Shown piece after piece: positions 5,166 to 24,239 of a DNA stretch of 25,774 nucleotides; position 1 is the stretch's first letter, and every line of letters starts with the position of its first letter. The position numbers and the translations under genes were made by a program. The stretch comes from a virus: the IMG/VR virus record IMGVR_UViG_3300000148_000007, positions 1 through 25,774 of that record; one strand, given 5' to 3'. Below the pieces are notes generated by a model. The model was not told where the DNA came from and did no database searches. It worked only from the letters and a program-made list of their open reading frames with translations.

Positions 5166-5169
5166 GACA

Positions 5170-6013: not shown

Positions 6014-6058
6014 CATCATAAATAGTTGTATTATGACGAAATTAACCTAAGTAAGTCT

Positions 6059-6066: not shown

Positions 6067-6091
6067 TGAATACAACAACGGATAAATTAAA

Positions 6092-6376: not shown

Positions 6377-6400
6377 TCTATATAATACATTATTTTTATT

Positions 6401-9090: not shown

Positions 9091-9093
9091 AAT

Positions 9094-9249: not shown

Positions 9250-9493
9250 CCGTATGTGGTGGTATCACACCCGTAATACAAGTTTTAAAAAATTTAGTAT
9301 TATCTATCAACTCTTTATAATTTTTAAGTTGACTAATATGTTCTAGTACATCTTCTATGGAAACATATTTAGTATATAAACAGTCTACCGTTCCTTCACC
9401 ATATGTCGCCCAAACACTTGTATTATTTAAATATGTTTTTTGTAATTTAAATACGTCAACTTTAAATTCAGGTATTTCAAAAGCATTAATCAT
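9224..9493 (-). pseudogene. Truncated 2OG oxygenase paralogue
   Basis: 89 codons that align with the first 86 residues of the oxygenase at 8521-9090. Shared landmarks in the same order are the opening FEIPE, WAxYG, LYTxYVS, xNxKFFKTxxTGxI and HTDKRK. Immediately after HTDKRK it runs into TKRG and a stop, so the distal His and Arg needed for metal and 2-oxoglutarate binding are absent. It should be catalytically dead, though a good ribosome site (GGAGAG, nine bases before ATG) means it could still be translated. The break falls in an A-rich tract, and the downstream DNA encodes an unrelated gene end (9094-9249). Confidence 0.75.
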
Positions 9494-9509
9494 AAAATAA
9501 TCTCTCCAA

Positions 9510-9962: not shown

Positions 9963-10381
9963 ACTGTAATTTCTTTTACTCTATGAGGTTGTTTTAATAC
10001 CCAGTCAATAATTTCCACACAATAATTAATAGACATCTTATTAGCATCAATATGAGCAACTCTAGGTGAATCAAAATAACCAAATCTAACAATTGTTGTA
10101 TTAATACCTTGATAAAATAATTGATGATTAGCCTTATCTAGTGCTGATTTTTCAACAGCGTAAATATGCTTAACTCTCTTGGTTTCATCTGGCGAGTTTG
10201 ATCCAATATTGATTATCTTTTTATTTAACTCGGCTGCCTGATATAACAACTCAACTTGTTTAAAACCATCATGTTTACAATTAATGAAAACATCACATTC
10301 TTCCATGGTTTCAACAGTATCATATATTTCAGATAATGCTTTACCAAGACCTCTGCGTTTACCAGTAATATAGTATTTCAT
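9953..10381 (-). CDS. Short-chain dehydrogenase/reductase-like protein
   Basis: 142 residues from the chosen start. The N-terminus MKYYITGKRRGLGKALS is a Rossmann TGxxxGLG cofactor motif; CDVFINCKH takes the place of the NAG strand, NIGSN that of the catalytic-serine strand, and YAVEKSALD carries the YxxxK pair. At about 140 residues it is far shorter than usual SDRs (about 250), missing much of the region between the cofactor strand and NNAG; all key motifs remain, as in compact phage versions. The frame is open upstream to an ATG at 10420, but those residues (MFISLFINYINMI) precede the fold, so 10381 is preferred. A TATAAATA box abuts the start. Confidence 0.75.
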   Translation of the reverse strand: MKYYITGKRRGLGKALSEIYDTVETMEECDVFINCKHDGFKQVELLYQAAELNKKIINIGSNSPDETKRVKHIYAVEKSALDKANHQLFYQGINTTIVRFGYFDSPRVAHIDANKMSINYCVEIIDWVLKQPHRVKEITVCP

Positions 10382-10386
10382 AATCA

Positions 10387-10407
10387 TATTTATATAGTTT
10401 ATAAATA
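10387..10407. promoter_or_regulatory. Face-to-face late promoter boxes (inverted repeat)
   Basis: TATTTATA-N5-TATAAATA. The left arm (10387-10394) is a late box on the minus strand and the right arm (10400-10407) a late box on the plus strand. The plus box lies 37 bases before the ATG at 10444, with AGGAG at 10431-10435, a normal late promoter layout. The minus box ends only six bases before the SDR start at 10381, so a transcript from it would be nearly leaderless. The two boxes are too close for two polymerases to bind at once. Confidence 0.65.
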
Positions 10408-10443
10408 GTGATATGAACATTAGAACAATTAGGAGAAAAATAA

Positions 10444-11055
10444 ATGTCGTTTAATAAATACTTAGAAAAGACTATTCAAAAGTCTCAACACTGTAACAGA
10501 AATTGGGATTTATCTAAGCAGATATCGCAAGAGGATTTAGAAACATTAAAGGTTTCTGTTACAAAGTGTAGTTCAAAACAGAATAGAGTTTTTTATAAAG
10601 TCTTGTACACGCAAGATCGAGATAAGATTAAAGCTATTCACAAAGCAACGGATGGATTTGTTTACGATTTTGAAAATCAAAAAACCACCACCAATTCTCA
10701 GGTTTTAGCTAACACACTATTTGCATTCGTAAAAGACAGTGATACAAATGTGCGTACAAATGAAGAGTGGCAAAAAGGAAAGGAAGAAGGTCGATCAGAT
10801 ATAGACGAAGATCGTTCTGTGGGTATAGCAGCAGGCTATCTTACATTAGCAGCTAATCTACTTGGATATGAAACAGGGTGTTGTCAATGTATGGATACAG
10901 TTGAAGTAAAGAATATACTTGGTAGTGACTCTGACGTGCTTCTATTAATGGGAGTTGGAATAGGAGATAAGACTCGCTCACGATTAGAACACCATGATGA
11001 TCCTTCTTTTAGATTTCCTTCTTTCACAAAAAATATAAAGATAGAAGTTGCATAA
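10444..11055 (+). CDS. Nitroreductase-family FMN oxidoreductase-like protein
   Basis: 203 residues. The segment SVGIAAGYLTLAANLLGYET (about 125-144) followed by GCCQCMD, and later LLLMGVGIGD, match the core helix and strand of nitroreductase-family flavoproteins, which bind FMN as homodimers and use NAD(P)H to reduce diverse substrates. The N-terminal HCNRNWDLSKQISQEDLETL fits the usual early helix region where an R..R..S type FMN-phosphate contact sits. Two vicinal cysteines (GCCQC) are unusual. The ribosome site AGGAG is eight bases before ATG, under a plus-strand late box. Substrate unknown; it could supply reducing power to the neighbouring oxidative enzymes. Confidence 0.75.
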   Translation: MSFNKYLEKTIQKSQHCNRNWDLSKQISQEDLETLKVSVTKCSSKQNRVFYKVLYTQDRDKIKAIHKATDGFVYDFENQKTTTNSQVLANTLFAFVKDSDTNVRTNEEWQKGKEEGRSDIDEDRSVGIAAGYLTLAANLLGYETGCCQCMDTVEVKNILGSDSDVLLLMGVGIGDKTRSRLEHHDDPSFRFPSFTKNIKIEVA

Positions 11056-11063
11056 TATAAAAC

Positions 11064-11936
11064 ATGAACATGGTGAATATAGTATGTACAGGCAAACCGG
11101 GTGATGGTCTTTTAAGATACAGTTACGAACATTGTTGTGCTCTAAATTCCAAAGGCATTAAAAGTCAATGTATAATAATACCTAATCCTGATTTTACAAA
11201 CGAAGACTATATAAAATCAATAACAGATCAGTATAAGACTTACCAAAATGTGATCTTTGATGATTATACTCCTTCTAAAAATGAAATTACTTTGGTGTTA
11301 GGTAGAAGTATGATAACTTTACCTTACCTAGATAAACATAGATATACTAACGACCAACTATTAACTTTACATCTATTATTCAGTAATAAAATAATAGCAA
11401 TTTATTCAGAAAATCAGCCTGAAGATTATCCTTTAGCACTAGAATATTTTAAACCTAAAAAGATTTTTGACCTATGTGATTTTGATGTATATCCTAATGG
11501 TGTTGGAACACAATACGAAAAGATAATTAACTTTGATGAATATAAACCAATAAAAGAAGAAATTATACACAAGTATTTATTTTTAGGAACAACTGAAATA
11601 TATTATAAAGAAATAGAAAAAATAATTGATAGATATTCAGACTATGGTATTGTAACCTATAATGTAAAATGGATAAATCCTAAGTTGAATAATCTATTTG
11701 CACCCGTATCTAATATACTGGGTAAGTTTGAAACCTATGTATATACAAAACCTAATTTTGATCCTGCACCTAGACTATTTGTAGAGTTTAAATGGCTAGG
11801 AAAAAATGTAGATTATGTAAGAGATAAGAACATTAAAGACGGTGGTATGGTATATTGGAATAGACCTCAACCCACGAAAGAGATATATAACAACAATATA
11901 AATATACTTGTTACATTGATTAATAAAATTAAATGA
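11064..11936 (+). CDS. Glycosyltransferase-like protein, copy 1
   Basis: 290 residues, clearly paralogous to the gene at 15131-16165. Shared landmarks are CTGKPGDGLLRYSYEHC near the N-terminus, LVLGRSMITL near 85, FDVYPNG near 145, NILGKFETYVY and FDPAPRLFVEFKWLGK near 235. The last motif resembles the acceptor-side APRLxxExK segment of GT-B-type enzymes, which suggests glycosyl transfer, but no family is firmly recognised. This copy lacks about 50 residues present between FDVYPNG and NILG in the other. The start could be 11064 or the ATG at 11070. It is nine bases after the nitroreductase gene, so probably on the late transcript. Confidence 0.65.
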   Translation: MNMVNIVCTGKPGDGLLRYSYEHCCALNSKGIKSQCIIIPNPDFTNEDYIKSITDQYKTYQNVIFDDYTPSKNEITLVLGRSMITLPYLDKHRYTNDQLLTLHLLFSNKIIAIYSENQPEDYPLALEYFKPKKIFDLCDFDVYPNGVGTQYEKIINFDEYKPIKEEIIHKYLFLGTTEIYYKEIEKIIDRYSDYGIVTYNVKWINPKLNNLFAPVSNILGKFETYVYTKPNFDPAPRLFVEFKWLGKNVDYVRDKNIKDGGMVYWNRPQPTKEIYNNNINILVTLINKIK

Positions 11937-11975
11937 AAAGTCTAAAGAAGAAATTAATAATAAACTGTTAGAACA

Positions 11976-12004
11976 TTGACAAACTAGTTAATACGTGTTA
12001 TAAT
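11976..12004 (+). promoter_or_regulatory. Consensus sigma70 promoter with extended -10
   Basis: TTGACA at 11976-11981, a 17-base spacer, and TATAAT at 11999-12004, both hexamers exact. The spacer ends in TGT, giving TGnTATAAT, an extended -10. Initiation is expected near 12011, 28 bases upstream of the ATG at 12039, which has AAAGGA at 12026-12031. It would be read by unmodified host polymerase, the early-promoter type in T4-like phages. It lies in the 102-base gap before the 13-gene run. Confidence 0.85.
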
Positions 12005-12038
12005 TGCACTAAATATACTTACATTAAAGGATTAAATA

Positions 12039-12986
12039 ATGAAAATATTAGTTACAGGTGGTTTAGGATTTATTGGTTCAAAACTCGTAGAACAGTTAAG
12101 TAAAAACAATTCAATTATTGTTTTGGACAATAAAGATACATATGGCCTTCTTAATAGTATTGAAGAAGATACTCTCTATAAAACAAGAACTGTTAATTGG
12201 AACAAAAAAAATGTTAAGATTATTGAAGGTGATATATTAAATCAAAATGCCTGCTTAGACGCATTTAATTATAATCCTGATGTTGTCATACATCTCGCTG
12301 CATACCCAAGAGCTTCCATAGTTGATAACAATCCCATATTAGGTGTACCTAAATTAATAAGTGGTACTACAAATATACTATACAATTGTGGTACGCATTC
12401 AATAAAAAAAATGATTTATGTAAGTAGTAGTATGGTTTATGGAAATTTTAAAGATGGTATTGAAGAAAGTGCTAGTACAAAACCAACAAATATATATGGA
12501 GAAGCAAAACTAACTGGAGAAAGACTTACAAAATTGTTTTCTAAAAAAAACAATATGTCTTATATTATAATAAGACCAAGTGCTGTTTATGGACTAAATG
12601 ATTTACCGGATAGAGTTATTCCTAAATTTTTTTCAAAAGCAATAAAAAATGAAGTTATAACTTTACACAATGGTGATAATAAAGCAGATTTTACTTTTAA
12701 AGATGATCTTGTTGATGGTTTAATTGCTGCTACATTTTCAGATGTAAAAAACGAAAGTTTTAATCTAACTGCAGGTAAAGCATTTTCATTAAAAACGTTA
12801 TCAGAAAACGTAAAAAGTATAACGGGAAGTAATTCAATTGTAGAAGATATCGGTAATCATAGATTATATCCCACGAGAGGCACCTTAGATATATCTAAAG
12901 CAAAAAATATGTTAAATTATAAACCACAAGTTACATTTGAACAAGGATTGAAACTTTATTATGAATCAATACAAAATACCATTTAA
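12039..12986 (+). CDS. NAD-dependent sugar epimerase/dehydratase (extended SDR)
   Basis: 315 residues, the usual length for UDP-glucose 4-epimerase-like enzymes. N-terminal Rossmann motif MKILVTGGLGFIGSKL (GxxGxxG), EGDILN for the adenine-side Asp, HLAAYPRAS, the serine strand IYVSSSMVYG, and the catalytic pair in IYGEAK. The C-terminal part has PSAVYGLND and FTFKDDLVDGL, typical of nucleotide-sugar binding. It probably epimerises or dehydrates a nucleotide sugar, feeding the aminotransferase encoded next, whose start overlaps it by 26 bases. First gene after the sigma70-type promoter. Confidence 0.92.
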   Translation: MKILVTGGLGFIGSKLVEQLSKNNSIIVLDNKDTYGLLNSIEEDTLYKTRTVNWNKKNVKIIEGDILNQNACLDAFNYNPDVVIHLAAYPRASIVDNNPILGVPKLISGTTNILYNCGTHSIKKMIYVSSSMVYGNFKDGIEESASTKPTNIYGEAKLTGERLTKLFSKKNNMSYIIIRPSAVYGLNDLPDRVIPKFFSKAIKNEVITLHNGDNKADFTFKDDLVDGLIAATFSDVKNESFNLTAGKAFSLKTLSENVKSITGSNSIVEDIGNHRLYPTRGTLDISKAKNMLNYKPQVTFEQGLKLYYESIQNTI

Positions 12987-14064
12987 TAACTTATACTCAC
13001 AATACGAGGAGTTAGAAAATGATATTAACGAATCAATTAAAACTATTATAAAAAATTCAGATTTTTTAACAGGTAAACCTACTGAAGATTTTGAAAAAGC
13101 TATTTGTGAATACACAGGCGCTGAAGATTGTGCAGCTACAAGTTCAGGTTCAGACTCACTTATATGTGCATTAAAAGCTTTAAATATAGGGCCAGGAGAT
13201 CAAGTGATGACAGTAGGACATACGTTTATTGCTACTACAGAATCAATTGTTAATGTAGGTGCTACACCTGTTTTTGTTGACATAGATAAATTCTATCATT
13301 TAGATGTATCTCAATTAAAGATAACAGATAATTTAAAGGCAATTCTATTTGTAGATTTATATGGTCAAACACCCGACATTGATAAAATTAAAAATTTTGC
13401 TAATAAATTTAATTTAAAAGTTATTGAAGACGCTGCTCAAAGTTTTGGTTCATCATATAAAGGAAATAAAGTAGGTAGTTTAGTAGATTTAACTTGTTTT
13501 AGTTTTAATCCTTTAAAAAATTTAGGAGCTATGGGAGATGCTGGTGCTGTAACAGGTAAAAGAAAATATGTTGAAAGAGTAAAAGCAATAAGAAATCATG
13601 GAAGAAGTAAAAATAACAATACAATAACTGGATATAACTTTAGAATAGATAATATACAAGCATCTATTTTAAACATAAAGTTAAAAAAAGTTGATGAATG
13701 GATAAAACAAAAACGACATATCTGTCAGATATATTCAAATGAATTAAGTAATATTGTAAAATGTCCTAAAGAAAATGAATGGAGTTATCACACGTATTAT
13801 GTTTATGTTATAGAAACTCCAGAAGGTACTAGGAATGACTTAAAAAAATACCTAGAAAAACAAAATATTGAAACAAAAATACACTATGAAAATTCTACTC
13901 ATCTATTACCTTATATAAATAATAAAAAAAATCTACCTAATACAGAATATACAACTAGTAATATATTAAGTTTACCTAATTATTATGATCTACCTGAACA
14001 TTGGCAACAACATATAATAAAGTCTATAAAAGATTTTTATAAAAAAAACAATTATGGAAAATAA
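12961..14064 (+). CDS. DegT/DnrJ/EryC1-type sugar aminotransferase (PLP)
   Basis: 367 residues, full length for the family. IPFNNLYSQYEEL at the N-terminus, ATSSGSDSLICAL for the PLP phosphate loop, VGHTFIATTESIVNVGATPVF, then VIEDAAQSFGSSYKG, where Asp contacts the PLP ring, and SFNPLKNLGAMGDAGAV, with the Schiff-base lysine. IRNHGR and NFRIDNIQASIL complete the signature. It transfers an amino group, normally from glutamate, to a keto-sugar nucleotide. Paired with the preceding epimerase/dehydratase, it should make an amino sugar. The start is inside the 3' end of the epimerase gene. Confidence 0.95.
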   Translation: MNQYKIPFNNLYSQYEELENDINESIKTIIKNSDFLTGKPTEDFEKAICEYTGAEDCAATSSGSDSLICALKALNIGPGDQVMTVGHTFIATTESIVNVGATPVFVDIDKFYHLDVSQLKITDNLKAILFVDLYGQTPDIDKIKNFANKFNLKVIEDAAQSFGSSYKGNKVGSLVDLTCFSFNPLKNLGAMGDAGAVTGKRKYVERVKAIRNHGRSKNNNTITGYNFRIDNIQASILNIKLKKVDEWIKQKRHICQIYSNELSNIVKCPKENEWSYHTYYVYVIETPEGTRNDLKKYLEKQNIETKIHYENSTHLLPYINNKKNLPNTEYTTSNILSLPNYYDLPEHWQQHIIKSIKDFYKKNNYGK

Positions 14065-14773
14065 CCTAGACACACACTTTTTTAACAGAAGAGGAATAAA
14101 CATTGACATTACACATAGATGTCCTTTAGAATGTCAAAGATGTCAAAGATGGTCCTCATTTACTAGTAAAGGTCTTAAGGTTCCCGGTGAAGATATTACC
14201 ATGGAAAATTTCTTAAAAATACTTAATTATTTTAACCATATAAATTTTTGTGGTCAGGTATCTGATCCCGTGCACCATCCTAAATTTATAGAATTATTAA
14301 AAAAAATACACGAACTAAATAAATCATGTAGTATTCATCATGCATCAGCTGCTAAACCCTTACCCTGGTATCCAAAAGCATTTGAAGCAGCTCCTAACGC
14401 ACAGTGGTGGTTTGGTATAGACGGTGTACCCAAAGATAGTCACAAGTATAGAACAAATCAAGACGGTGAAAAGTTATATAATATAATGAAAGACAGTGTT
14501 AAGTATCTAAATAAAACACCTATATGGCAAATGATAGTTTTTAAATTTAATGAAAATGATATTGAAAAAACAAAAAATATGGCAAACGATATTGGTGTAA
14601 AATTTGTCGTAATAAACTCTTCCAGATGGATAGGGGATAACGATCCTTTAAGACCAACAGATAAAAATTTAAGTTTAAATTTAAAAGACAAAGGTAAGAT
14701 AACCACTAAATTTGGTGGCTTACATGAATTTAGATTTTTAAATGAGAATGATTTAAAAAGAATAAAGAAATAG
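14054..14773 (+). CDS. Radical SAM protein, N-terminal half of a split gene
   Basis: 239 residues. THRCPLECQRCQRW carries the CxxxCxxC cluster motif at C23, C27 and C30, close to the N-terminus. The GGEP motif of other family members is replaced by FCGQVSDPVHHPKF, a variant seen in some radical SAM proteins acting beside glycan genes (my inference). WWFGIDGVPKD and IWQMIVFKFNEND are barrel strands. The protein stops at 14773, and the gene beginning two bases later encodes a cysteine-rich tail like a SPASM domain, so the two may once have been one protein of about 355 residues. It overlaps the aminotransferase end by 11 bases. Confidence 0.85.
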   Translation: MENNLDTHFFNRRGINIDITHRCPLECQRCQRWSSFTSKGLKVPGEDITMENFLKILNYFNHINFCGQVSDPVHHPKFIELLKKIHELNKSCSIHHASAAKPLPWYPKAFEAAPNAQWWFGIDGVPKDSHKYRTNQDGEKLYNIMKDSVKYLNKTPIWQMIVFKFNENDIEKTKNMANDIGVKFVVINSSRWIGDNDPLRPTDKNLSLNLKDKGKITTKFGGLHEFRFLNENDLKRIKK

Positions 14774-14774
14774 A

Positions 14775-15128
14775 ATGAATAAAGATAAAACTAAATTACC
14801 TGAAGTAGATCCTAAATGTATGGATAAACGACAAGGAAATTATGGGTTCACAAATAGGGGTGAACTAATACCTTGTTGTTGGTTAGATACACAAAATAAT
14901 AGAAAAGAAGAAAAATATAAAAAACTATTAGCTGTAAGTAATATTAATGACCATGATAGTGTTGAAGATATTGTTATGCAAAAAGAATGGATAGATTTTT
15001 ACAAGGAATTAAAACAAGGAAGAGGGTTTCCTCAATGTCATCATGTATGTAAAAAACGTGAAAAACCACAACATCAAAAACAAACTTTTTATAAAGACAA
15101 TAAAGTTGTTAGTGTAAGAGAAACTTAA
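14775..15128 (+). CDS. SPASM-like cysteine-rich protein, C-terminal half of the split radical SAM gene
   Basis: 117 residues with cysteines C15, C34, C35, C88 and C92 arranged as in auxiliary iron-sulfur (SPASM or twitch) domains: YGFTNRGELIPCCWLD, then FPQCHHVCKK. The NRGELIPCCW pattern resembles the NGDVxPCC segment of SPASM domains. It starts one base after the upstream stop, in the +1 frame relative to the radical SAM gene. It may be made as a separate subunit that assembles with the radical SAM half, or be the result of a one-base indel in an A-rich stretch (14760-14775). The C-terminal 25 residues are very basic. Confidence 0.75.
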   Translation: MNKDKTKLPEVDPKCMDKRQGNYGFTNRGELIPCCWLDTQNNRKEEKYKKLLAVSNINDHDSVEDIVMQKEWIDFYKELKQGRGFPQCHHVCKKREKPQHQKQTFYKDNKVVSVRET

Positions 15129-15130
15129 TT

Positions 15131-16165
15131 ATGAAAGTAGTTATAGCATACACAGGTAAACCTTGTGACGGCCTCTTTTATTATAGTTATGAACATTGTA
15201 GTCACTTAAACTCTTTAGGTATTAAAACAAAACTAGTTATAATTTTGTATCCTCAATCTAAAAAAGAAGAATATGTAAATGCTTTAAAATCAAAATATAT
15301 TGATTATCAAAATGTTGAATTTGATGTATATTCTCCAGAGTTAAACGATATAGTATTAGTTATGGGTCGTAGTATGCTAACACTTGGATATGAACATATT
15401 ATTTTTAAAAAATACAATCTAGAGCAAACTCTTTCAACAAAACTTCTATTTACCAATAAAATTATTAATGTTTTTGCTGAAAATCACCCTATTAGATTTC
15501 CAAAAGCTTTAAACTATTTTAAACCTAAATTTAAGTACGATTTATGTGACTATGATGTTTATCCAAATGGTGAAGGTGAACCTTTTAAAAAGATAATAAA
15601 TTTTAGTATATACAAGCCATTTGAAAATAATATTAAATTTAAATATTTATTTAATGGAGTCAATGAGAAATATTATGATAGTTTTTTAAATAATATAAAA
15701 CTTACATCACCAAAATATTTAAAATTTAATGAGTTAGAAGTTAGTAAAGTACCATACTTTGATGGTAAGAAATTAAATTACATAGAAACATCATCTATTA
15801 ATAATTTTAAATCGCATGGAATATTAGTTTTAAGAGATATTTTAACTAGACCTTTTTTCAAATATGGTATAAAATTTAAAGATGACAGATATAACAATAT
15901 TGAGGTACCTGTAAAAAACATATTAGGTATGTTTGATACTTATGTATATAACAAACAAATATTTGATCCAGCACCAAGACTAATGATGGAGTGTAAATAT
16001 TTTAAAAAGAAATTTCTCTTTTTAAGAGATACTAAAATTATTGATGGAGGAAGTGCATATTTAAAAAGAGAACCCTATTGTTTAACAAGTGATAAAAATA
16101 AAGATAACATTAATGTTTTAATAACGGCTTTGGAAAAGACACATGAAAAAAATATTATTGGTTAG
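15131..16165 (+). CDS. Glycosyltransferase-like protein, copy 2
   Basis: 344 residues, a paralogue of the protein at 11064-11936. It shares AYTGKPCDGLFYYSYEHC at the N-terminus, LVMGRSMLTL, FKYDLCDYDVYPNGEG, NILGMFDTYVYN and FDPAPRLMMECKYFKKKF near the C-terminus. It carries an extra segment (about residues 190-245) missing from copy 1. The APRLxxExK motif and two-lobe pattern suggest a GT-B-like glycosyltransferase, without a named family. It starts three bases after the preceding gene and overlaps the SGNH gene by 23 bases, inside the sigma70-driven run. Confidence 0.65.
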   Translation: MKVVIAYTGKPCDGLFYYSYEHCSHLNSLGIKTKLVIILYPQSKKEEYVNALKSKYIDYQNVEFDVYSPELNDIVLVMGRSMLTLGYEHIIFKKYNLEQTLSTKLLFTNKIINVFAENHPIRFPKALNYFKPKFKYDLCDYDVYPNGEGEPFKKIINFSIYKPFENNIKFKYLFNGVNEKYYDSFLNNIKLTSPKYLKFNELEVSKVPYFDGKKLNYIETSSINNFKSHGILVLRDILTRPFFKYGIKFKDDRYNNIEVPVKNILGMFDTYVYNKQIFDPAPRLMMECKYFKKKFLFLRDTKIIDGGSAYLKREPYCLTSDKNKDNINVLITALEKTHEKNIIG

Positions 16166-16859
16166 TGGAGATAGTTGGACAGATCCTAACTTTATTTCAG
16201 CTGAACACCCAGAGCTAGATTGTTCATGGCCTAAATGGCCTGAGATATTAGCTAAAAAATTAAACATGGAATGTGTAAACTTAGGAAGAAATGGAGCAGG
16301 CAATGAATATATTTATAGCTCTATACTAGATCAATTACAAATTATAGATCATACGCAAATAGGATATGTAATTGCTGGATGGTCTGGAGCAAATAGACGT
16401 TCTTATGCATTCAATAAGCCAACTCAATGGAGAACTGAAAAAGTAGATAATAAGGGTGATTTGAGATATTGGTTACAGAGAAGTATCCGATATTATTATT
16501 CATTTCAAACAGTAATGAACTATCTAAAATTACCATATATTCATATGCAAATGGTTAATATGTATCGAGGATATCTACACCAAAGAATTTTTAACCCACC
16601 TCAAGCAACTAATAAATTTTTAAAAAAACTAGCACTTAATGAAATACTCAGTACGTCATACGAGTTTAATGATAAATTTTTAGGTTGGCCCACAGATAAA
16701 GACTTGGGTGGGTTTTCTATTGATGTAGATATTATACAAGACCAATATGGTGTTGATTTAGATATTATAAAAAACGATTTGATAATATCAAAGTTAGACT
16801 TACACCCCAATAAAAAAGGACAAGAAAAAATAGCGGAGTATATCCATGAAAATATATAG
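16143..16859 (+). CDS. SGNH/GDSL-family hydrolase or acyltransferase
   Basis: 238 residues. Block I LVSGDSWTD has the nucleophile Ser (S11), GRNGAG near residues 48-53 provides the Gly/Asn oxyanion elements, and the C-terminal LDLHPNKKGQ carries the catalytic Asp-His pair (D219, H221) with one residue between. SGNH enzymes remove or transfer acyl groups on glycans and other esters. Among sugar genes, deacetylation or O-acetylation of a sugar is the likeliest role. No signal peptide, so it acts in the cytoplasm. Both ends overlap neighbours (23 and 14 bases). Confidence 0.85.
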   Translation: MKKILLVSGDSWTDPNFISAEHPELDCSWPKWPEILAKKLNMECVNLGRNGAGNEYIYSSILDQLQIIDHTQIGYVIAGWSGANRRSYAFNKPTQWRTEKVDNKGDLRYWLQRSIRYYYSFQTVMNYLKLPYIHMQMVNMYRGYLHQRIFNPPQATNKFLKKLALNEILSTSYEFNDKFLGWPTDKDLGGFSIDVDIIQDQYGVDLDIIKNDLIISKLDLHPNKKGQEKIAEYIHENI

Positions 16860-18405
16860 TGTTGCTTTAAATTTACATGACCACAATACCTATGATGGCA
16901 AACATCACAATCAACTAGAACGATTTACCCGGTTTAAGCACAATATTCCTTTGCATTTTGATTCTTATGCTGTCTATGGTGAGTCTGACAAGATGAACAT
17001 AAATGATTACAAATTAAATGTTGATTTTTATAATAAATATTTTTACAAAAAAGAAAAATCTGTTTTAGCCTTTACATTTACGAATGGGGGTATACGAGGG
17101 TTATTAAATAAAGACTACATACTCAAATATTCTAGCACCTTAGAATATACCAAAAGTTTAGATGAGGTTTTAGGTAAACACAAAGATGCTATTTTAAAAT
17201 TTAAACCTAAAAATATATGGGATCATTTTTACAAAGATGACTTATATTATATAGATCATCACCAATCTCATGCTACATATGCATATTTAAATTCAGGATT
17301 TAAAGAATCTGATATTTTAGCAATGGACGGTATAGGTTGGAATTATAGATGTATCTTTATAGATAAAACTGGAACAATACAAGATTTTTCTAAAGAATTA
17401 CCATTAGGTTGGATCTGGAATCAAATGTCTAAATTAGCTGGGTTTGGATCATTGGGTGCAAGTAAACTTATGGGTTTAGTGGGATATGGTAAATATGACG
17501 AATATTATAACAATGTATTTCATATGTTAGTAGAAGATGAACGTAGAGAAAAAGGAAATGACGATCACCATAAAATAAAAATTAATGAATCTACTTTACC
17601 TAATTTAGCATATACTTTACAACAATTTACAATAGACAAAATTAAAGAACATATCTATCCTTTAAAAAGTTGTGATAATCTTTGTATTGCTGGAGGTGTA
17701 GCATACAACGGATATATGAATGAGGAATTTACTAAACATTACAATAATGTATTTGTTCCTCCTGCAGTTGGTGATGAGGGACAGGCATTAGGAACTTATC
17801 AACATGCTGACTACGTACTGAATAACAATGTACATAAAACAAAAACATTTGCTGGTAAAGAATATGACTATATAGGAGATAAAAGAGTTAACTATAAAGA
17901 AGTGGCACAAGCAATTGCTGATGGTAAAATAGTTGGTTGGTTTCAAGGTAAGTCAGAAAGTGGTAATCGTGCATTAGGTAATAGAAGTATATTAGCAGAC
18001 CCTCGTAATCCTGACATAAAAGATATTATTAATAATACTATTAAAATGAGAGAAGACTTTAGACCATTTGCACCAGCGGTATTAGAAGAACACTATAAAG
18101 AATACTTTGATACAAATAGTCCTAGTCCTTATATGTCTAGGATATGTAAAGTTAAGTCTAATAAAGTACCGGGTATAACTCATATAGATAATACAGCAAG
18201 AATACAAACTGTTAATCAAAAGTTTAATGGTAAGTTCTATAATTTAATAAATGAGTTTTATAAAATAACAGGTATACCAATGTTATTGAATACTAGTTTT
18301 AATTGTCAAGAACCCATAGTAGAAACTCCTGAACATGCAATTAGAACTTTTAAAAGAACCTCATTAGACTTACTTGTTATAAATGATTGGATTATAAGAA
18401 AATGA
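16846..18405 (+). CDS. O-carbamoyltransferase (NodU/CmcH/TobZ family)
   Basis: 519 residues. The N-terminal ASKHA-fold half shows DHHQSHATYAYLNSGF, with histidines that bind metal and carbamoyl-adenylate, and DILAMDGIGWN. LCIAGGVAYNGYMNEEF is the nucleotide-binding segment. The C-terminal YrdC-like half has GWFQGKSESGNRALGNRS, DFRPFAPAVL and PMLLNTSFN, the family signature. The enzyme uses carbamoyl phosphate and ATP to carbamoylate a hydroxyl group. Known targets in the family are sugars (nodulation factors, tobramycin) and cephems; a phage relative has been reported to act on hydroxymethylated DNA cytosine. All key motifs are intact. Confidence 0.93.
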   Translation: MKIYSVALNLHDHNTYDGKHHNQLERFTRFKHNIPLHFDSYAVYGESDKMNINDYKLNVDFYNKYFYKKEKSVLAFTFTNGGIRGLLNKDYILKYSSTLEYTKSLDEVLGKHKDAILKFKPKNIWDHFYKDDLYYIDHHQSHATYAYLNSGFKESDILAMDGIGWNYRCIFIDKTGTIQDFSKELPLGWIWNQMSKLAGFGSLGASKLMGLVGYGKYDEYYNNVFHMLVEDERREKGNDDHHKIKINESTLPNLAYTLQQFTIDKIKEHIYPLKSCDNLCIAGGVAYNGYMNEEFTKHYNNVFVPPAVGDEGQALGTYQHADYVLNNNVHKTKTFAGKEYDYIGDKRVNYKEVAQAIADGKIVGWFQGKSESGNRALGNRSILADPRNPDIKDIINNTIKMREDFRPFAPAVLEEHYKEYFDTNSPSPYMSRICKVKSNKVPGITHIDNTARIQTVNQKFNGKFYNLINEFYKITGIPMLLNTSFNCQEPIVETPEHAIRTFKRTSLDLLVINDWIIRK

Positions 18406-19148
18406 AAATAGTATGTATAAAGTATGGTGATAAATTTTCTTACAAGCATGTTAATCGCTTGTATAAGATGGTAAAAAGAAACTTTAAGAATAACTTTGAT
18501 TTTTATTGTCATACAGAAGACCCTAGAGGAATTAATAAAGAAATTAAAATAATAGACTTACCACCTGAGTGGGAAGATTATAAAACTGAAGTATATCCAT
18601 ATTGGGTTAAGTTACAAGCATTCTTTGAAAAACCAACTGATGAAACTACAATATATTTTGATTTAGACATTGTAATACAAAAAGACATAACTCATTTAAC
18701 AAAATATTGTGAAAAAGATAAAATTTGTATAATAAAGGCATATTGGAAACCACATTTTCATATGACAAAACCTAAGGCACCAAATTATGATATGGACCTT
18801 AACGCTTCAGTTATGATATGGACAGGAGATTGTACATGGGCCTGGAATAACTTTAAAAAACATCTTGATTATTATGCACTCATCTACAATGGAACAGACC
18901 CCTATCTGTATATACATAATTATGATAATTTAACTTGGTTACCAAAGGGTGAGGTGTACTCACGCTTATATGGGTATGATGAAAATAATTTTTACCATCC
19001 ATATTTGGGTGACTCTACAAAATTATTTTATAATGAAAATTATAATATATGTATTTTTAATGGTTGGGAAAGAAAAAAAAAGATAAATGGTTCATATGCA
19101 TTAACAAATGCATCATATAAAGGTTTTGAGAAATACTGGAATGATTGA
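18402..19148 (+). CDS. Glycosyltransferase with DxD motif
   Basis: 248 residues from the chosen start. The ATG at 18402 overlaps the carbamoyltransferase stop as ATGA and gives MKIVCIKYGDKF, matching the start of its paralogue at 22057 (MRIICAKWGEKYT), so it is preferred to the ATG at 18387. IYFDLDIVIQKDI contains the DxD motif that binds the metal-nucleotide-sugar complex in GT-A enzymes, and DLNASVMIWTGDCTWAW is shared with the 22057 paralogue. The shorter protein at 21354 has a similar design. It presumably transfers one sugar residue in the glycan encoded by this run. Confidence 0.82.
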   Translation: MKIVCIKYGDKFSYKHVNRLYKMVKRNFKNNFDFYCHTEDPRGINKEIKIIDLPPEWEDYKTEVYPYWVKLQAFFEKPTDETTIYFDLDIVIQKDITHLTKYCEKDKICIIKAYWKPHFHMTKPKAPNYDMDLNASVMIWTGDCTWAWNNFKKHLDYYALIYNGTDPYLYIHNYDNLTWLPKGEVYSRLYGYDENNFYHPYLGDSTKLFYNENYNICIFNGWERKKKINGSYALTNASYKGFEKYWND

Positions 19149-19785
19149 TTTAGAAAAAAATACAATAGATTTAAACTTTTTTAAAAAAATAATTAAAACA
19201 ATTAAACAAACTTATAACAGCGATTATAAAAACTCAAAAGAATTATTAGATTCTTTAAGTTATACCCAATTTGAATCTAAATCAAAATTGTTAGAATATA
19301 TTGATTTGTTAGGAATACTTAATACAGATTGTCATGTAAGTGTATTAGGCTGTTGGTTTAATTCCATCTTAGGATCAATTTTATCAAGTAAAGTAAAAAA
19401 TATAACGGGTTATGATATGGATAAGTCTGTAGTACAGATGGGTAAAAATATTTTTAGAGATCGTAAGAATGTAGATTTTTACCATTTAAATGTTTTTGAA
19501 ACTATTAAAGATCGTATTGAAAAAACTAATTTGTTAATTAATACATCTTGTGAGCATATGAAACCTATGAAAGAATGGCCTTTTTGGAACAGAATAAAAC
19601 CAAATACATATTTGGCATTTCAATCACATAACGACAAAACAATAAAAGACCATATAAATTGTGTTCAATCTTTAGAAGAATTTAGAAATCAACTTCCTAG
19701 TAATATTAAAATATTATTAGAAAAGGAGTTAAAGGAAACACATAGAAATGGTACAAGATATACGATTATAGGTAAAACAATATGA
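19141..19785 (+). CDS. Class I methyltransferase-like protein
   Basis: 214 residues starting MIDLEKNTIDLNF at 19141, which overlaps the preceding gene by eight bases. A longer reading from 19108 adds residues that only mirror the neighbour's 3' end and is disfavoured. HVSVLGCWFNSILGSIL resembles the SAM-binding first strand and loop, ITGYDMDKSVVQMGKNIF is the second strand with its acidic residue, VDFYHLNVFETI the third, and NLLINTSCEHM the fourth. The glycine-rich loop is atypical (GCWFNS rather than GxGxG). It may methylate a sugar or a protein; the substrate is unknown. Confidence 0.65.
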   Translation: MIDLEKNTIDLNFFKKIIKTIKQTYNSDYKNSKELLDSLSYTQFESKSKLLEYIDLLGILNTDCHVSVLGCWFNSILGSILSSKVKNITGYDMDKSVVQMGKNIFRDRKNVDFYHLNVFETIKDRIEKTNLLINTSCEHMKPMKEWPFWNRIKPNTYLAFQSHNDKTIKDHINCVQSLEEFRNQLPSNIKILLEKELKETHRNGTRYTIIGKTI

Positions 19786-20651
19786 GTAAAGTAATTTATA
19801 GTCTTTACATAGACATACCAAAAGAAGAACTTGATTTATTTGATAGCAATATATTAAAAAAAAATGAAATACCCACAAACTATAATACAAAAAATAAGTT
19901 TAAACAAAATTATAGTAAACTTATTAATTGTAAAAAAGATTATGCCAAACAAATAGGTGTTGATTTTAAAATGTTTGAATATGATAAGAGTTTTATTTTA
20001 TATCAAAAAACCATGAAAACAAAATATCCCTTTCTCACATCTTATAATGTAGTTAATTTTTATAAAATACATTTACTATATAAATTGGCTGAAGAATATG
20101 ATGATATACTTTACCTAGACTTTGATGTTGTACCTATGAAGAATATAAACTTTTTTGATAATTGGAATTTATCAAAAGGTATAGCTGTATTAAGTAATAC
20201 TGATAAAGTAAAAAGAATTGAAGAAATAACAGAATACACGCAAACTATACGAAGCCCAACATCAAAGTATTATAACGCTCAAGCTATGTTAATTGAAAGA
20301 AATTTAAATCCTGTACATGAGGTTGTAAATACTGGTATTATAGGTATAAACAAAAAACACTTAACACAACTAAAATATTTTGACAACTTTGAACTTGATT
20401 TAAAACAAATGAGCAACCTTATAAATAGTAATGAAATTTTTCCTTCAAAATTAACAAACTTTTTTGGTTGGGATAATGAAACATTGTTTGCTGTAAAACT
20501 TGTTGAAAACAATATTAATGTACAATGGTTAAATAACGAATGGCATTATTTTTTTGATACGCAATTTTTTATACCAGAAAATATAATTTTATGTCACACA
20601 ATAAACAAAAAATTTGAAATAGTATGGAGAAGATATGAAAATAACATATAA
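19782..20651 (+). CDS. Glycosyltransferase with DxD motif
   Basis: 289 residues. EEYDDILYLDFDVVPMKNI carries the DxD-type motif of GT-A glycosyltransferases, followed by VNTGIIGINKKH, and later FGWDNETLFAV and WLNNEWHYFF, which line the acceptor site in related GT8/GT32-like proteins. It is longer than the other DxD proteins of the run and only distantly related to them. ATG overlaps the preceding stop (ATGA), and the end overlaps the PP-loop gene by 17 bases, so it belongs to the same transcript. Confidence 0.8.
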   Translation: MSKVIYSLYIDIPKEELDLFDSNILKKNEIPTNYNTKNKFKQNYSKLINCKKDYAKQIGVDFKMFEYDKSFILYQKTMKTKYPFLTSYNVVNFYKIHLLYKLAEEYDDILYLDFDVVPMKNINFFDNWNLSKGIAVLSNTDKVKRIEEITEYTQTIRSPTSKYYNAQAMLIERNLNPVHEVVNTGIIGINKKHLTQLKYFDNFELDLKQMSNLINSNEIFPSKLTNFFGWDNETLFAVKLVENNINVQWLNNEWHYFFDTQFFIPENIILCHTINKKFEIVWRRYENNI

Positions 20652-21354
20652 TAATACAACAATAGATTTTTTTCCTGAAGATTTAAAAGAAATAATGTTT
20701 TCTTTATCAGGCGGTACTGACTCTGCTTCATTGCTTTACTTGATATGTACAAATTTTCCTAAAATGAAAATACGTCCTTATAATATGTTAGACATTAACC
20801 ATCCTTTTGATACAGAATGTGCTAGAGATGTTCTGTCTTGGTTTAAAACTAATTTTCCTAAACAACAAATAGAAGAGCTTGAGTTATATCCTTTTGATGA
20901 TTTAGATCCTAATTATCAAGAAAAAGCTAAAAAAATATTAAATGTAAACCCAGGTTACTATACAGCTGTAAGAGGTGTGGTAAAAATTTTAAAAGGAAGA
21001 GAAATTCATGCACAAATTCGTAAAAAATATCCACAATTGTTAAAAGTTACCGGTATGTCTAAAAATCCTTCTTTTGAAGATATGAAAAACTATGACAATA
21101 CTATTTTATTTAACAATAGAGAACATAGAAGGGACGGAATTAGAGAACAAATGCAAAGTGGCTTATATCAGCCATATTTAAATGTTGATAAAAAGTTTAT
21201 TGCAGATATATTTAAAAAACACAACTTAATGGATGATTTATTTGAAAGAACTGGATCTTGTGTAGGCAGCGCTAATGTAACTAATGGTTTTAGTGAACCT
21301 TGTAAAGATTGTTGGTGGTGCCATGAAAAAAGATGGGCATTTGGTGAGTTTTAA
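20635..21354 (+). CDS. PP-loop ATP pyrophosphatase, QueC-like
   Basis: 239 residues. FSLSGGTDSASLLYLI near the N-terminus is the SGGxDS PP-loop that binds ATP and adenylates a carboxylate or amide. The C-terminus has GSCVGSAN followed by EPCKDCWWCHEKRWAF, a four-cysteine pattern very like the zinc site of QueC (7-cyano-7-deazaguanine synthase), and the length also fits QueC. No other deazaguanine genes (QueD, QueE, FolE) are in the window. An alternative is an amidotransferase-like step on a sugar, as in the PP-loop WbpG/PseA proteins, though the cysteine pattern fits QueC better. The ribosome site GGAGAAG lies just before the ATG. Confidence 0.75.
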   Translation: MKITYNNTTIDFFPEDLKEIMFSLSGGTDSASLLYLICTNFPKMKIRPYNMLDINHPFDTECARDVLSWFKTNFPKQQIEELELYPFDDLDPNYQEKAKKILNVNPGYYTAVRGVVKILKGREIHAQIRKKYPQLLKVTGMSKNPSFEDMKNYDNTILFNNREHRRDGIREQMQSGLYQPYLNVDKKFIADIFKKHNLMDDLFERTGSCVGSANVTNGFSEPCKDCWWCHEKRWAFGEF

Positions 21355-22076
21355 TGCTTAAAATCTGTGTCGTTTACTTTGATGGTTTTTATACACCAGA
21401 TTATGTAACCAATTTACATGATAGTTTACGAAAACACACAACAGTTGATTTTGAGTTTGTATGCTTATCTGATAACAAGAACATTAAAGCTGATATTGTT
21501 TTACCCTATAATCACCATAGTGATATAAAAAAACATTGGCATAAACTTAAATTTTTCAGTCCACTTTTTGGTAATCAACAACCAAATGATGATATTATAA
21601 TTATGGATATTGACCAAGTTATATTACAAAACATTGATGACCTGATAACTTGGCCAGTAAAAGAAAACGAGTTAGTGACGTATGGTCAATGGTGGGAGAA
21701 TAAACTAGGTATCAATGGTGGGTTTTATAAATTTAAATCAGGAAGTTTAAAATTTATTTGGGACGATTTTATAAAAAATCCTAACTATTGGCAAACTCAT
21801 TACTATAACAACGGTGATGTTCATATCAAATATTATGGTGAACAAAACTATGTTAAGTGGAAGACACAAGAACACAATGCAATCATAACAAAAACTCCAC
21901 CGGAATGGCTGTGTAAATACACAGACAACTACAAAGATAACTTACAATTGAACAAGTTGTACATGCAAAAATTTAATACTGACTATATGATTATGGGTAA
22001 TGAGGTAAATAAAAAAATAAAAGTAATACACTTTACAGGAGTAGGTAGGAAAATAAATGAGAATTATTTGCGCTAA
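21354..22076 (+). CDS. Glycosyltransferase with DxD motif
   Basis: 240 residues. DDIIIMDIDQVILQNIDDL has the DxD motif, followed by LGINGGFYKFKSGSLKFIW, equivalent to the acceptor-site NxSxMxWxxG segment of its neighbours. The N-terminus MLKICVVYFDGFYTPDYV is the first Rossmann-like strand. ATG shares its A with the preceding stop (TAATG), so translation is coupled. It is the third DxD-type enzyme of the run and distantly related to those at 18402 and 22057. Confidence 0.8.
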   Translation: MLKICVVYFDGFYTPDYVTNLHDSLRKHTTVDFEFVCLSDNKNIKADIVLPYNHHSDIKKHWHKLKFFSPLFGNQQPNDDIIIMDIDQVILQNIDDLITWPVKENELVTYGQWWENKLGINGGFYKFKSGSLKFIWDDFIKNPNYWQTHYYNNGDVHIKYYGEQNYVKWKTQEHNAIITKTPPEWLCKYTDNYKDNLQLNKLYMQKFNTDYMIMGNEVNKKIKVIHFTGVGRKINENYLR

Positions 22077-22626
22077 ATGGGGTGAAAAATATACCGATTG
22101 GCATGTTAAAAATTTAAAACATATGATTGATACCTACTCGGGTATTAAGTATGATAAGTTTGAAGTGTTTACAAAAAACAATTATGGTAATATGTATAAC
22201 AAACTAGAAATGTTTGATACATACAAAGATGGTGAGAATATCTACTTTGATTTAGATATGGTCATTTATAATAAAGTTCCAAATTTAGTTAGAACAAATT
22301 TTACATTAATGTATGATTGGTGGAGAGAACCCTACCATACACCATTAAACTCATCAATGGTATCATGGACTGGAGATATATCTCATATATGGAAGAAATT
22401 TAAATCTAATGAGAAAGATTATTTAAAAAAATATCCACATAGTATAGATGAATTTTATTTTAAAGAAATAAATTATGAAACATTTGACAAGGTGTGCTAT
22501 TCAATAAAAGGACATGAGTATGACAAAGAAGCTAATAAAGACTTTAGTATATGTACCTTAGGACAAATGCAACATCTTATGGAAAAAGGTTGGAATGGTT
22601 GGTGGACAGAATATTTCTATTCGTAA
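22057..22626 (+). CDS. Glycosyltransferase with DxD motif, short
   Basis: 189 residues, a shorter paralogue of the protein at 18402-19148. MRIICAKWGEKYTDWHVKNL matches its N-terminus, IYFDLDMVIYNKVPNL has the same DxD, and LNSSMVSWTGDISHIW the same acceptor segment. It lacks about 60 residues, mostly in the region before DxD and at the C-terminus. Last gene of the sigma70-driven run. Its 3' end overlaps the 3' end of the convergent radical SAM gene by ten bases, with no terminator hairpin visible between them. Confidence 0.8.
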   Translation: MRIICAKWGEKYTDWHVKNLKHMIDTYSGIKYDKFEVFTKNNYGNMYNKLEMFDTYKDGENIYFDLDMVIYNKVPNLVRTNFTLMYDWWREPYHTPLNSSMVSWTGDISHIWKKFKSNEKDYLKKYPHSIDEFYFKEINYETFDKVCYSIKGHEYDKEANKDFSICTLGQMQHLMEKGWNGWWTEYFYS

Positions 22627-23741
22627 CTTTTTATTTCTTTAATTAGATCAGACCACACTTCTCTCCATTTCAATTTTCTATGTTTAAATAGTAAGTCAAG
22701 GTAAGTAAATGCTTCTTCATATCCATTATCTTTGTGTGCAGGTTTAAGTAATTCTGTAACAATAGGATCTTCATCATGGTATTTTTTAAGGTAATAATTT
22801 TTCATTTTTTGAGGAAGATTACATATTGAAAATATTTTTGGACTATACACTATATTATTAAACTCTATAACCATACCCTTATCATTGTAATATTTTTTTA
22901 TTTCATGTAAATCTTGAATATTTAAGATTCCAACAGTCAAATTCATAATATGTTTATAGTTATCGTCCTTAATTTTTTTCAAATTTTTTTCAAATTTTTT
23001 TACATCAATAGGATACCTTATATATTTTAATTTTTTTCCAAAATGGTCACATGATATTCCTAACTTAACCTCTTTAAATTTTTTTCTAACCCAATCTAAA
23101 CTATAATTTTTCCAAGTTAAACTAGTTAAGTTAGTATCATATGATATTCTAATATTTTTTGCTGCTTTATCTGGAATTCTTTTCAGTAATTCCCAATGTT
23201 TTGGTAATTGTAATGGTTCACCTCCCAATAATCTAATAATATTTACATGATGTATATTTTTTAAAATATTTTCCACTATTTCATTATATCTTTTAAAATT
23301 AACTGTTGTAGGCTTATCACCAAACCAAACTTTTCTTATTTCATTATCTGTAAATATTTCTTTAGTTTCATTATCTTTAGTGCTTGAATTAGAAGGATAA
23401 CACATATAACATGATAAATTACAAAAGTTTGTGCCTATACCTTGTAACTTTAAAGAAATTTTAATATCTTTATATTTTTCTCCATACATCTCATTGTATA
23501 TTTGTCTCCAAGACTTGCCATTTAATTTTTCTATTTTCCAACAAATATCACAGGCTTTTGGTTTTTCATTTAATAAAAATTTTAATCTAGTATCCTTTAT
23601 CTGATCTGAAAAAAAATAATCAAATGGAGTATAGTCTTCAACTTTAAATTCACTTGGATTAGCATGACAACATAATTTGTATCGCCCTTTAGTGTTTGAA
23701 TAAATCTCTTTAAAAGGCATAACACAGAATGTATCAGACAT
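22617..23741 (-). CDS. Radical SAM protein with N-terminal extra-cluster cysteines
   Basis: 374 residues. The core CxxxCxxC is at C107, C111 and C114 (NFCNLSCYMCYP), with the GGEPLQLP motif at 173-180. Ahead of the core is a cysteine-rich region: C6 in FCVMPF, C24 and C25 in YKLCCHANP, C64 and C67 in ACDICWK. This resembles a SPASM or twitch auxiliary cluster placed before the barrel, an order seen in radical SAM proteins of marine T4-like phages. Such proteins usually modify peptides or small molecules; the substrate is unknown. It lies on the minus strand with the structural genes, separated from the 23751 gene by nine bases. Confidence 0.88.
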   Translation of the reverse strand: MSDTFCVMPFKEIYSNTKGRYKLCCHANPSEFKVEDYTPFDYFFSDQIKDTRLKFLLNEKPKACDICWKIEKLNGKSWRQIYNEMYGEKYKDIKISLKLQGIGTNFCNLSCYMCYPSNSSTKDNETKEIFTDNEIRKVWFGDKPTTVNFKRYNEIVENILKNIHHVNIIRLLGGEPLQLPKHWELLKRIPDKAAKNIRISYDTNLTSLTWKNYSLDWVRKKFKEVKLGISCDHFGKKLKYIRYPIDVKKFEKNLKKIKDDNYKHIMNLTVGILNIQDLHEIKKYYNDKGMVIEFNNIVYSPKIFSICNLPQKMKNYYLKKYHDEDPIVTELLKPAHKDNGYEEAFTYLDLLFKHRKLKWREVWSDLIKEIKSYE

Positions 23742-23750
23742 TTTAATAAA

Positions 23751-24239
23751 TTATTCTACACATTCCAAAGCTGCTTTAATAACATCTAATTTATTTGTTG
23801 AAGTTCTTAATTTTTTTCTTGCTTCATTATTTTTTGAATCCCTTATGTAAGTTAACTCAAACAATGCTAACTTTAAAGCAAATAAATGATCTGTATTATT
23901 TTGATCTTCAAAAATAGATTTAACCATATACGGAAAAAACTTTGTATCTACTTGTTCATAGTCAAATATTAATCCTTGTTTTTTAGCAAGATCAATTGCA
24001 ATTTTTTCCATACTTTCTTTTTCCGTTTTCTTTTTTTGGTAAGTTGCTTCATGTAGTTGATCTATATTAATAACAGTCATTAATGCTTTGAACATATGAT
24101 TATCTTCCTTAAAGGGTATAATCGTAGGTATTACACTTTTACCGTCTTCACTTGTTGTTAAAATTTCTATATTTTGTCTTTCACTATCTATAAAAGCTGC
24201 CGTAATAAAATTATCTTTTAAGTATTCTTCAGTTAACAT
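23751..24239 (-). CDS. Unknown protein
   Basis: 162 residues, not recognised. The N-terminal half has strand-like segments (FITAAFIDSERQNIEILTT, SVIPTIIPF); the middle is a charged helix (EATYQKKKTEKESMEKIAID), and the C-terminal half is helical (FALKLALFELTYIRDSKNN, NKLDVIKAALECVE). No signal peptide or membrane span. A strong GGAG ribosome site precedes the ATG, which lies inside the epimerase 3' end (11-base overlap). Position between a virion gene and cargo leaves the role open; it could be a structural accessory protein. Confidence 0.75.
   Translation of the reverse strand: MLTEEYLKDNFITAAFIDSERQNIEILTTSEDGKSVIPTIIPFKEDNHMFKALMTVINIDQLHEATYQKKKTEKESMEKIAIDLAKKQGLIFDYEQVDTKFFPYMVKSIFEDQNNTDHLFALKLALFELTYIRDSKNNEARKKLRTSTNKLDVIKAALECVE

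Follow-up and report, generated by a model that had tools for sequence, protein, structure and literature searches.

A syntenic phage cassette with a constant frame and an exchangeable interior: candidate tailoring of host surface glycan in marine T4-like phages

T4-like phages of SAR11 bacteria (pelagimyophages) carry, behind their neck genes, a hypervariable host recognition cluster that lies between gp14 and VrlC. The paper describing it reports glycosyltransferases and radical SAM cassettes, and proposes O-chain modification (Zaragoza-Solas et al., 2020; PMC7029224). The T4-like Campylobacter phages CP220 and CPt10 also have radical SAM clusters with proteins of the nucleoside diphosphate (NDP)-sugar-transferase type. 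These form an interchangeable module, equal in function and different in sequence, for which a metabolic boost was proposed (PMC2853527). The genome of Pelagibacter phage Mosig EXVC030M (MT647606) was announced without discussion of the cassette considered here (PMC7892664).

The subject of this analysis is the IMG/VR virus record IMGVR_UViG_3300000148_000007 (26.4 kb), of which positions 1 to 25,774 are called the window. Its genes for the terminase, the tail sheath stabiliser, and the neck proteins are T4-like. Thirteen plus-strand open reading frames occupy 12039-22626, each beginning between 41 nucleotides before and 2 nucleotides after the preceding stop. A first-pass annotation read them as 13 coupled genes behind one promoter, and as a candidate self-contained glycan modification system. 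Coupling and promoter are borne out. The genes form a conserved syntenic frame of soluble enzymes behind a host-type promoter, with an interior that differs among close relatives. On balance, the probable explanation is an exchangeable, early-expressed tailoring cassette by which a carbamoylated amino sugar is placed on a host surface glycan. We infer the target and the chemistry, as well as the substrate, the acceptor, and the effect on other phages.

A cassette probably within the host recognition cluster

The window resembles the published cluster in its position behind the neck genes, its hypervariability, its glycosyltransferases, and its radical SAM cassettes in a T4-like SAR11 phage. 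A T4 neck protein (PF11649) is encoded at 3882-5165, and the next neck gene, 5170-5976, marks the left edge of the cluster. The contig stops short of VrlC; in Mosig, VrlC comes after the orthologous flank. The block appears to be part of a bigger cassette, from about 10444 to 22626, within this host recognition cluster.

Mosig is the nearest named relative (75.5% DNA identity over the terminase and its neighbours), and by analogy the host is probably SAR11-like. Ten genes of its cassette (genes 82-94) and three beside it are orthologous to genes of the window and lie in a matching arrangement, at 34-68% identity. The Mosig order is: a gene annotated as nitroreductase, GT-B, radical SAM, SPASM, SGNH, DegT, radical SAM, carbamoyltransferase, methyltransferase, and GT-A genes. 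The Mosig cassette closes on convergent genes also found in the window. Since the cassette of such relatives begins at the nitroreductase and GT-B genes, the functional block starts ahead of the promoter, at about 10444 rather than at 12039; the 13 genes stand, with two more before them. Beyond the Mosig set, the window has a second GT-B gene, one more GT-A gene, and a PP-loop gene.

The first-pass annotation did not recognise a described pathway. In part one exists: the region and the idea of O-chain modification were published in 2020, and the CP220/CPt10 module was already seen as interchangeable. As far as the available passages of PMC7029224 go, they name no carbamoyltransferase and do not give this gene set; what is added to them here is the fixed frame, the swap of an amino-sugar module, the promoter, and the split radical SAM/SPASM genes. 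No description of the frame, the swap, or the split genes was found. The Campylobacter phages differ in having an amidinotransferase in place of the carbamoyltransferase, and their radical SAM core is 27% identical.

Fixed frame and rapid turnover

A search for the gene set in other phages and hosts found linked genes, not scattered homologues. Loci were first collected by scanning IMG/VR with five families (a separate SDR scan was made later), and the IMG/VR loci, named phages, and window were collapsed to 102 groups sharing no 300-mer. About 100 non-redundant IMG/VR loci hold parts of the cassette, and 23 syntenic loci hold its full span. These 23 were selected on the GT-B, carbamoyltransferase, and closing genes, which are present by selection; SGNH, GT-B, radical SAM, and PP-loop genes served as baits, so their counts are biased. 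Three families that were not baits recur nevertheless: DegT (23/23), the methyltransferase-like protein (22/23), and the GT-A family of 19782-20651 (22/23). The constant frame consists of the GT-B, DegT, carbamoyltransferase, methyltransferase-like, and GT-A enzymes, around a variable interior. The PP-loop gene, in 16 of 53 carbamoyltransferase-bearing loci, is variable cargo, and in relatives nitroreductase-like genes sit at several cassette positions. The notion of a linked sugar or glycan modification set is well upheld by the synteny with Mosig, by the 23 loci of full span, and by the range of enzyme families, which fit the oxidation and amination of sugars, their carbamoylation and methylation, and the transfer of glycosyl groups.

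Turnover is evident in the sister contig L074 (its positions 1-11774 compared with 1-11931 of the window). Identity is 96.6% over 1-6066, the structural genes; past 6066, the match is confined to a 44-bp stretch and the GT-B gene (85.6%), and the gene directly behind GT-B in L074 is a different PP-loop gene. Hypervariability between close relatives is seen in this pair and richness in glycosyltransferases in the window, which has several GT-like proteins; both are hallmarks of the host recognition cluster, and divergence from 6067 onward is what would be expected of a host-interaction locus. The constant GT-B gene plausibly serves as a recombination anchor. Variability alone would also suit mostly neutral "stuffer" metabolic DNA, retained for headful packaging and forming no single pathway, a role proposed as possible for lipopolysaccharide clusters of large cyanophages (PMC3037559). 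This is unlikely here: the interior is highly variable, but frame and order are fixed across very divergent phages, the reading frames are intact, and active-site residues and promoter are conserved.

Within 50,697 records of named phages, Mosig alone has the GT-B gene, and no record has the PP-loop protein. Among 84,980 genomes, GT-B was found on three contigs of metagenome-assembled genomes in GTDB (L204, L205, and L206, labelled Pelagibacter, Rhodobiaceae, and Planctomycetota). Each bears the phage cassette itself, so the contigs are probably pieces of phage DNA that were mis-binned with bacteria. A host origin of the GT-B gene was rejected, since these genomes and 247 SAR11-family genomes yielded mis-binned phage contigs only.

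Two versions of a probable amino-sugar module

The interior differs in its amino-sugar genes. DegT and carbamoyltransferase occur together in 50 groups. In 47, a Mosig-type DegT accompanies a radical SAM protein of the Mosig_00088 type, without an SDR of the 12039 family. The other three (the window, L112, and L128) have the SDR and a different DegT, without the Mosig_00088-type protein.

In the window, the SDR-family nucleotide-sugar epimerase/dehydrogenase is encoded at 12039-12986 (+; PF01370, 2e-41; below all NCBIfam cut-offs). It has the YxxxK motif, and SSSM at the position where 4,6-dehydratases should carry a DE pair. The next gene, 12961-14064 (+), encodes an aminotransferase of the pyridoxal phosphate-dependent DegT/DnrJ/EryC1 family (PF01041, 1.5e-93), of an SDR-coupled subfamily and 34% identical to Mosig_00087. 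NCBIfam equivalog cut-offs for legionaminic and pseudaminic acid enzymes are not reached (LegB, 98 of 475 bits; LegC, 185 of 420; PseC, 213 of 423.5).

The Mosig_00088-type protein belongs to relatives and is none of the window's 13. Seven of its cysteines are invariant in 20 sequences: C22, C26, and C29 (CxxxCxxC), and C195, C214, C250, and C253. The top Foldseek matches of its model are BtrN (4m7s and 4m7t), with SpeY sixth, and the twitch domain of BtrN and SpeY is recognisable; model confidence is moderate (pLDDT 78, with a poor cluster loop). BtrN turns an aminocyclitol alcohol into a ketone by oxidation (PMC9012708). Because the phage protein resembles this alcohol-to-ketone enzyme, both arrangements look like an oxidation and transamination pair, one NAD-dependent and the other radical-based.

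There is a parallel in antibiotic biosynthesis. The butirosin pathway uses BtrN and BtrS for a step that other 2-deoxystreptamine pathways perform with an NAD-dependent dehydrogenase. A radical SAM twitch dehydrogenase plus DegT can thus be replaced by an NAD-dependent dehydrogenase plus DegT, and the phage modules appear to show the same exchange. A diffusible aminoglycoside-like or oligosaccharide product is a further reading. Carbamoyltransferases, DegT enzymes, and BtrN/SpeY-type dehydrogenases all occur in pathways for aminoglycosides and related antibiotics, and the closest solved relatives are GdmN, the novobiocin carbamoyltransferase, and TobZ, with BtrN and SpeY for the relatives' module. 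Yet the block encodes no scaffold-forming enzyme, transporter, or resistance gene, and multiple GT-A enzymes in a host recognition cluster fit a surface glycan better; we regard a diffusible product as quite unlikely.

Trees bear on how often the swap occurred. The methyltransferases of the window and L112 are mutual nearest relatives, as are the carbamoyltransferases, less clearly; in the trees of GT-B, of the 19782 family, and of the closing gene, window and L112 are placed separately among other loci. The three SDR cassettes therefore represent a module of single origin, carried by at least two backbones, and few events. Three independent swaps, or 50 independent cases of module exclusivity, are ruled out by these trees. 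The SDR-DegT pair is also present in an unrelated phage (L198). In SAR11-family genomes, DegT adjoins SDR in all eight loci with the best SDR matches. One of these, the surface polysaccharide locus L235, resembles the cassette in that its adjoining SDR and DegT genes are followed by two carbamoyltransferases, and it also holds a GT4 enzyme and a polysaccharide deacetylase; it differs in its low identity (28-37%) and in lacking any match to the phage-type GT-B, split radical SAM, or SGNH genes. A carbamoyltransferase domain is found in 147 of 247 SAR11-family genomes.

A radical SAM/SPASM enzyme in two genes

The first-pass annotation listed a radical SAM pair. Its members are present, as one enzyme of a naturally split family, with core and SPASM in separate genes. 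The core gene, 14054-14773 (+; 53% to Mosig_00084), encodes a conserved CxxxCxxC (C23, C27, and C30) and lacks a C-terminal SPASM domain; PF04055 scores 20.7 bits against a cut-off of 29.5. The stand-alone SPASM-like partner follows at 14775-15128 (+; PF13186, 0.005, also below cut-off), with five cysteines invariant in 19 relatives. The region 14054-15128 thus does not encode a single radical SAM/SPASM polypeptide, and Mosig shares the separation. Representatives include 45 core-then-SPASM pairs, 16 SPASM-then-core adjacencies (some of which fall between consecutive pairs), and five fused proteins. Sequencing error or programmed frameshifting was rejected as the cause of the split, as overlaps vary widely in length and the reverse gene order also occurs. 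No described split radical SAM/SPASM enzyme was found in open-access papers, and we know of none with core and SPASM as separate subunits.

Putative decorating and transferring enzymes

Annotation drew on Pfam, PHROGs, and NCBIfam, on profiles built from relatives, and on AlphaFold models with Foldseek. It bears out the earlier calls of epimerase family, DegT, and carbamoyltransferase and those of two glycosyltransferases; for the SGNH, radical SAM, and PP-loop proteins the agreement is weak.

A NodU/TobZ-type O-carbamoyltransferase is encoded at 16846-18405 (+; PF16861, 1.4e-66; PF02543, 6.8e-21; 68% to Mosig_00089). Carbam_trans_N and Carbam_trans_C score 75.5 and 223.6 bits, above cut-offs of 24 and 27; comparison with solved relatives gives GdmN at 2.8e-49 and TobZ at 5e-45, and the HHxxHA and DG motifs align with GdmN. 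The methyltransferase-like protein, 19108-19785 (+; 44% to Mosig_00090), can now be assigned to class I, as its profile from 19 relatives matches MJ0882 (3.6e-6) and spermidine synthases. An SGNH/GDSL-like hydrolase or acyltransferase at 16143-16859 (+; weak GDSL Pfam matches; 39% to Mosig_00086) shares S11, G51, N54, D219, and H221 with its Mosig counterpart.

The constant first cassette gene, 11064-11936 (+; 63% to Mosig_00083), encodes a GT-B fold glycosyltransferase-like protein. Its AlphaFold model (pLDDT 93.8) has GT-B glycosyltransferases as top Foldseek matches (PimA, a bacterial glucosyltransferase, and T4 AGT), which shows the fold class only. An alignment of 23-24 relatives has 48 invariant columns. 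A second GT-B-like protein of 344 residues, 15131-16165 (+), is unannotated and assigned to this fold as a paralogue (42% identity over 335 residues); its FDPAPR motif is conserved. As this second GT-B gene heads the SGNH-carbamoyltransferase half, the arrangement suggests that the window cassette was built by joining two cassettes.

Four genes encode GT-A-like proteins: 18387-19148 (+; phrog_1962, 1.1e-11; FDLD motif; likely start ATG at 18402); 19782-20651 (+; invariant DxD, D113 and D115, in 18 relatives; 48% to Mosig_00091); 21354-22076 (+; phrog_1962, 2.2e-16; 64% to Mosig_00092); and 22057-22626 (+), the final block gene, related to 18387-19148 and 64% identical to Mosig_00094. The 19782-20651 protein has no Pfam or PDB match, and sequence searches of solved structures with its family and the GT-B family gave no match.

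The PP-loop ATP pyrophosphatase at 20635-21354 (+) had been called QueC-like. The PP-loop motif (SGGxDS) and a four-cysteine C-terminal site are invariant in 16 relatives, and the profile weakly matches ThiI, NadE, and QueC; the QueC score (PF06508, 16.9 bits) is under the cut-off of 22, and the match covers the C-terminal cysteine part alone. With T4 DNA alpha-glucosyltransferase among the GT-B fold matches, this cysteine site might hint at phage DNA modification, by 7-deazaguanine or by base glucosylation. That is very improbable, and was ruled out as a candidate by the QueC score and the missing partner genes: the window has no recognisable QueD, QueE, DpdA, or TGT-like gene. PimA and the bacterial glucosyltransferase match as well as AGT, and Mosig, in the parts of its genome examined, has ThyX and no annotated dCMP hydroxymethylase.

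Promoter and choice of target

An extended -10 sigma70 promoter-like site (TTGACA-17-TATAAT, TG before the -10; 12/12 match) lies at 11976-12004 (+). Only 0.1 such sites are expected by chance on both strands (300 dinucleotide shuffles of the window). In relatives, sites matching at least 11/12 lie directly 5' of the GT-B gene in 13 of 68 (0.4 expected). None lies upstream of the carbamoyltransferase, methyltransferase, or GT-A 19782 genes, and one upstream of DegT (1/54). Pattern matches within the GT-B coding region of relatives were judged, from their position, a coincidence of conserved coding sequence. Leaderless GT-B transcripts are suggested by a -10 hexamer whose end lies 5-7 nucleotides ahead of the called GT-B start in L017, L021, L080, L110, L112, L123, L128, L145, L175, and others.

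The motif ATAAATA, expected by T4 analogy to be of late type, lies 20-36 nucleotides upstream of many structural genes in the window and Mosig. The promoter pattern favours early expression, and so modification of the host rather than the virion, but does so indirectly, and a CTAAATA also lies 30 nucleotides 5' of the SDR gene.

Virion modification is a lesser possibility that we think rather doubtful. Here the cassette would glycosylate tail fibres or other proteins of the phage particle itself, which would then bear a decorated amino sugar that shields it or helps it to bind receptors. All proteins are soluble, as a cytoplasmic protein acceptor requires; the neighbours of the cassette are a probable tail protein and VrlC, with tail fibre genes nearby, in Mosig; and the flanking protein (24983-25735) is conserved together with the cassette, as are the convergent genes. 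However, the promoter is of sigma70 rather than late type, and the tail region is conserved independently of the cassette (GT-B, GT-A, and flank genes differ in tree neighbours). Of the three targets first suggested, host surface glycan is therefore favoured over virion protein, and DNA is unlikely.

Proposed pathway

In tailoring of host surface glycan, host polymerase would read the cassette early. The SDR would oxidise or epimerise a host NDP-sugar, and DegT would aminate the resulting keto-sugar. GT-B and GT-A enzymes would move sugars onto a cytoplasmic glycan precursor of the host, and the carbamoyltransferase, methyltransferase, SGNH, split radical SAM/SPASM, and PP-loop enzymes would decorate the sugar or glycan. 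Export would use the host's own flippase and ligase. The altered surface would keep rival phages from adsorbing, or keep the phage's own progeny off spent cells.

Several lines of evidence argue for this pathway: Mosig synteny; unbaited co-occurring genes; fitting catalytic families; the SAR11-family SDR-DegT loci; the sigma70 promoter at the head of the cassette; divergence between sisters; and the lack of a transmembrane protein. The published interpretation of the region (PMC7029224) agrees. The claim that the system is self-contained does not survive. Nothing recognisable makes or activates NDP-sugars (there is no nucleotidyltransferase), or flips, polymerises, or ligates a glycan. None of the 13 block proteins has a predicted transmembrane segment (19-residue segments with hydropathy above 1.6), and Pfam finds no initiating transferase, flippase, polymerase, or ABC exporter in the block. 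With no membrane components, a complete O-antigen or capsule system was ruled out.

Four points weigh against surface-glycan tailoring, whose acceptor is putative. Host assignment of the contig comes by way of Mosig. The adjoining probable tail protein is also compatible with virion glycosylation. The proposal does not account in detail for the split radical SAM pair or for the PP-loop protein. Finally, SAR11-family genomes yield no relative of the GT-B family beyond one mis-binned phage contig, so that, at this sensitivity, GT-B is not a borrowed host O-chain enzyme.

Flanking genes and other clusters

The first plus-strand gene of the bigger cassette, 10444-11055, encodes a nitroreductase-family protein (PF00881, 4.5e-7; 29% to Mosig_00093). 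Convergent with the block lie, on the minus strand, a twitch-domain radical SAM protein (22617-23741; NF033640, 251.5 bits against a cut-off of 170); the conserved closing protein, with no function assigned (23751-24239; 51% to Mosig_00095; 63 relatives); a second protein of the nucleotide-sugar epimerase family (24229-24969; PF01370, 1.5e-26; 66% to Mosig_00096); and the probable virion or tail-associated protein (24983-25735; 64% to Mosig_00097, two genes from VrlC).

An opposite-strand group at 6930-10420 encodes fatty acid desaturase, radical SAM, and Asp/Asn hydroxylase-like proteins; within it, 9224-9493 is a truncated second copy, 45% identical to 8521-9090. Mosig has a second cluster (MT647606, 124832-130666) with glycosyltransferases, a sulfotransferase, and two methyltransferases. 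Marine phage locus L005 (1-15715), and also L190 and L191, hold a long array in which radical SAM/twitch genes alternate with PP-loop genes (QueC-like, four cysteines); the L005-type array also holds SGNH, nitroreductase, and 2-oxoglutarate oxygenase genes. It looks like a different and undescribed pathway.

Implications

Relatives that share the cassette frame and swap its chemistry may each re-label the host and shut rivals out. A broader and more tentative proposal, possible but far from probable, is serotype-like switching in marine T4-like phages. A constant promoter and GT-B/GT-A frame would receive interchangeable sugar-donor modules (radical SAM dehydrogenase plus DegT, or SDR plus DegT), with the split radical SAM/SPASM enzyme decorating the sugar; each module would confer a different carbamoylated amino-sugar label and exclusion specificity.

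Few groups in the sea are as abundant as SAR11 bacteria and their phages, and phage effects on the SAR11 surface are almost unknown. A constant frame with swappable chemistry turns the vague notion of lipopolysaccharide genes in phages into testable questions: what sugar a given module makes, and whether exchanging modules alters rival exclusion. From the module swap, a reaction can be predicted for an uncharacterised family of phage radical SAM proteins, and the split genes would provide a two-subunit version of a normally single-chain enzyme.

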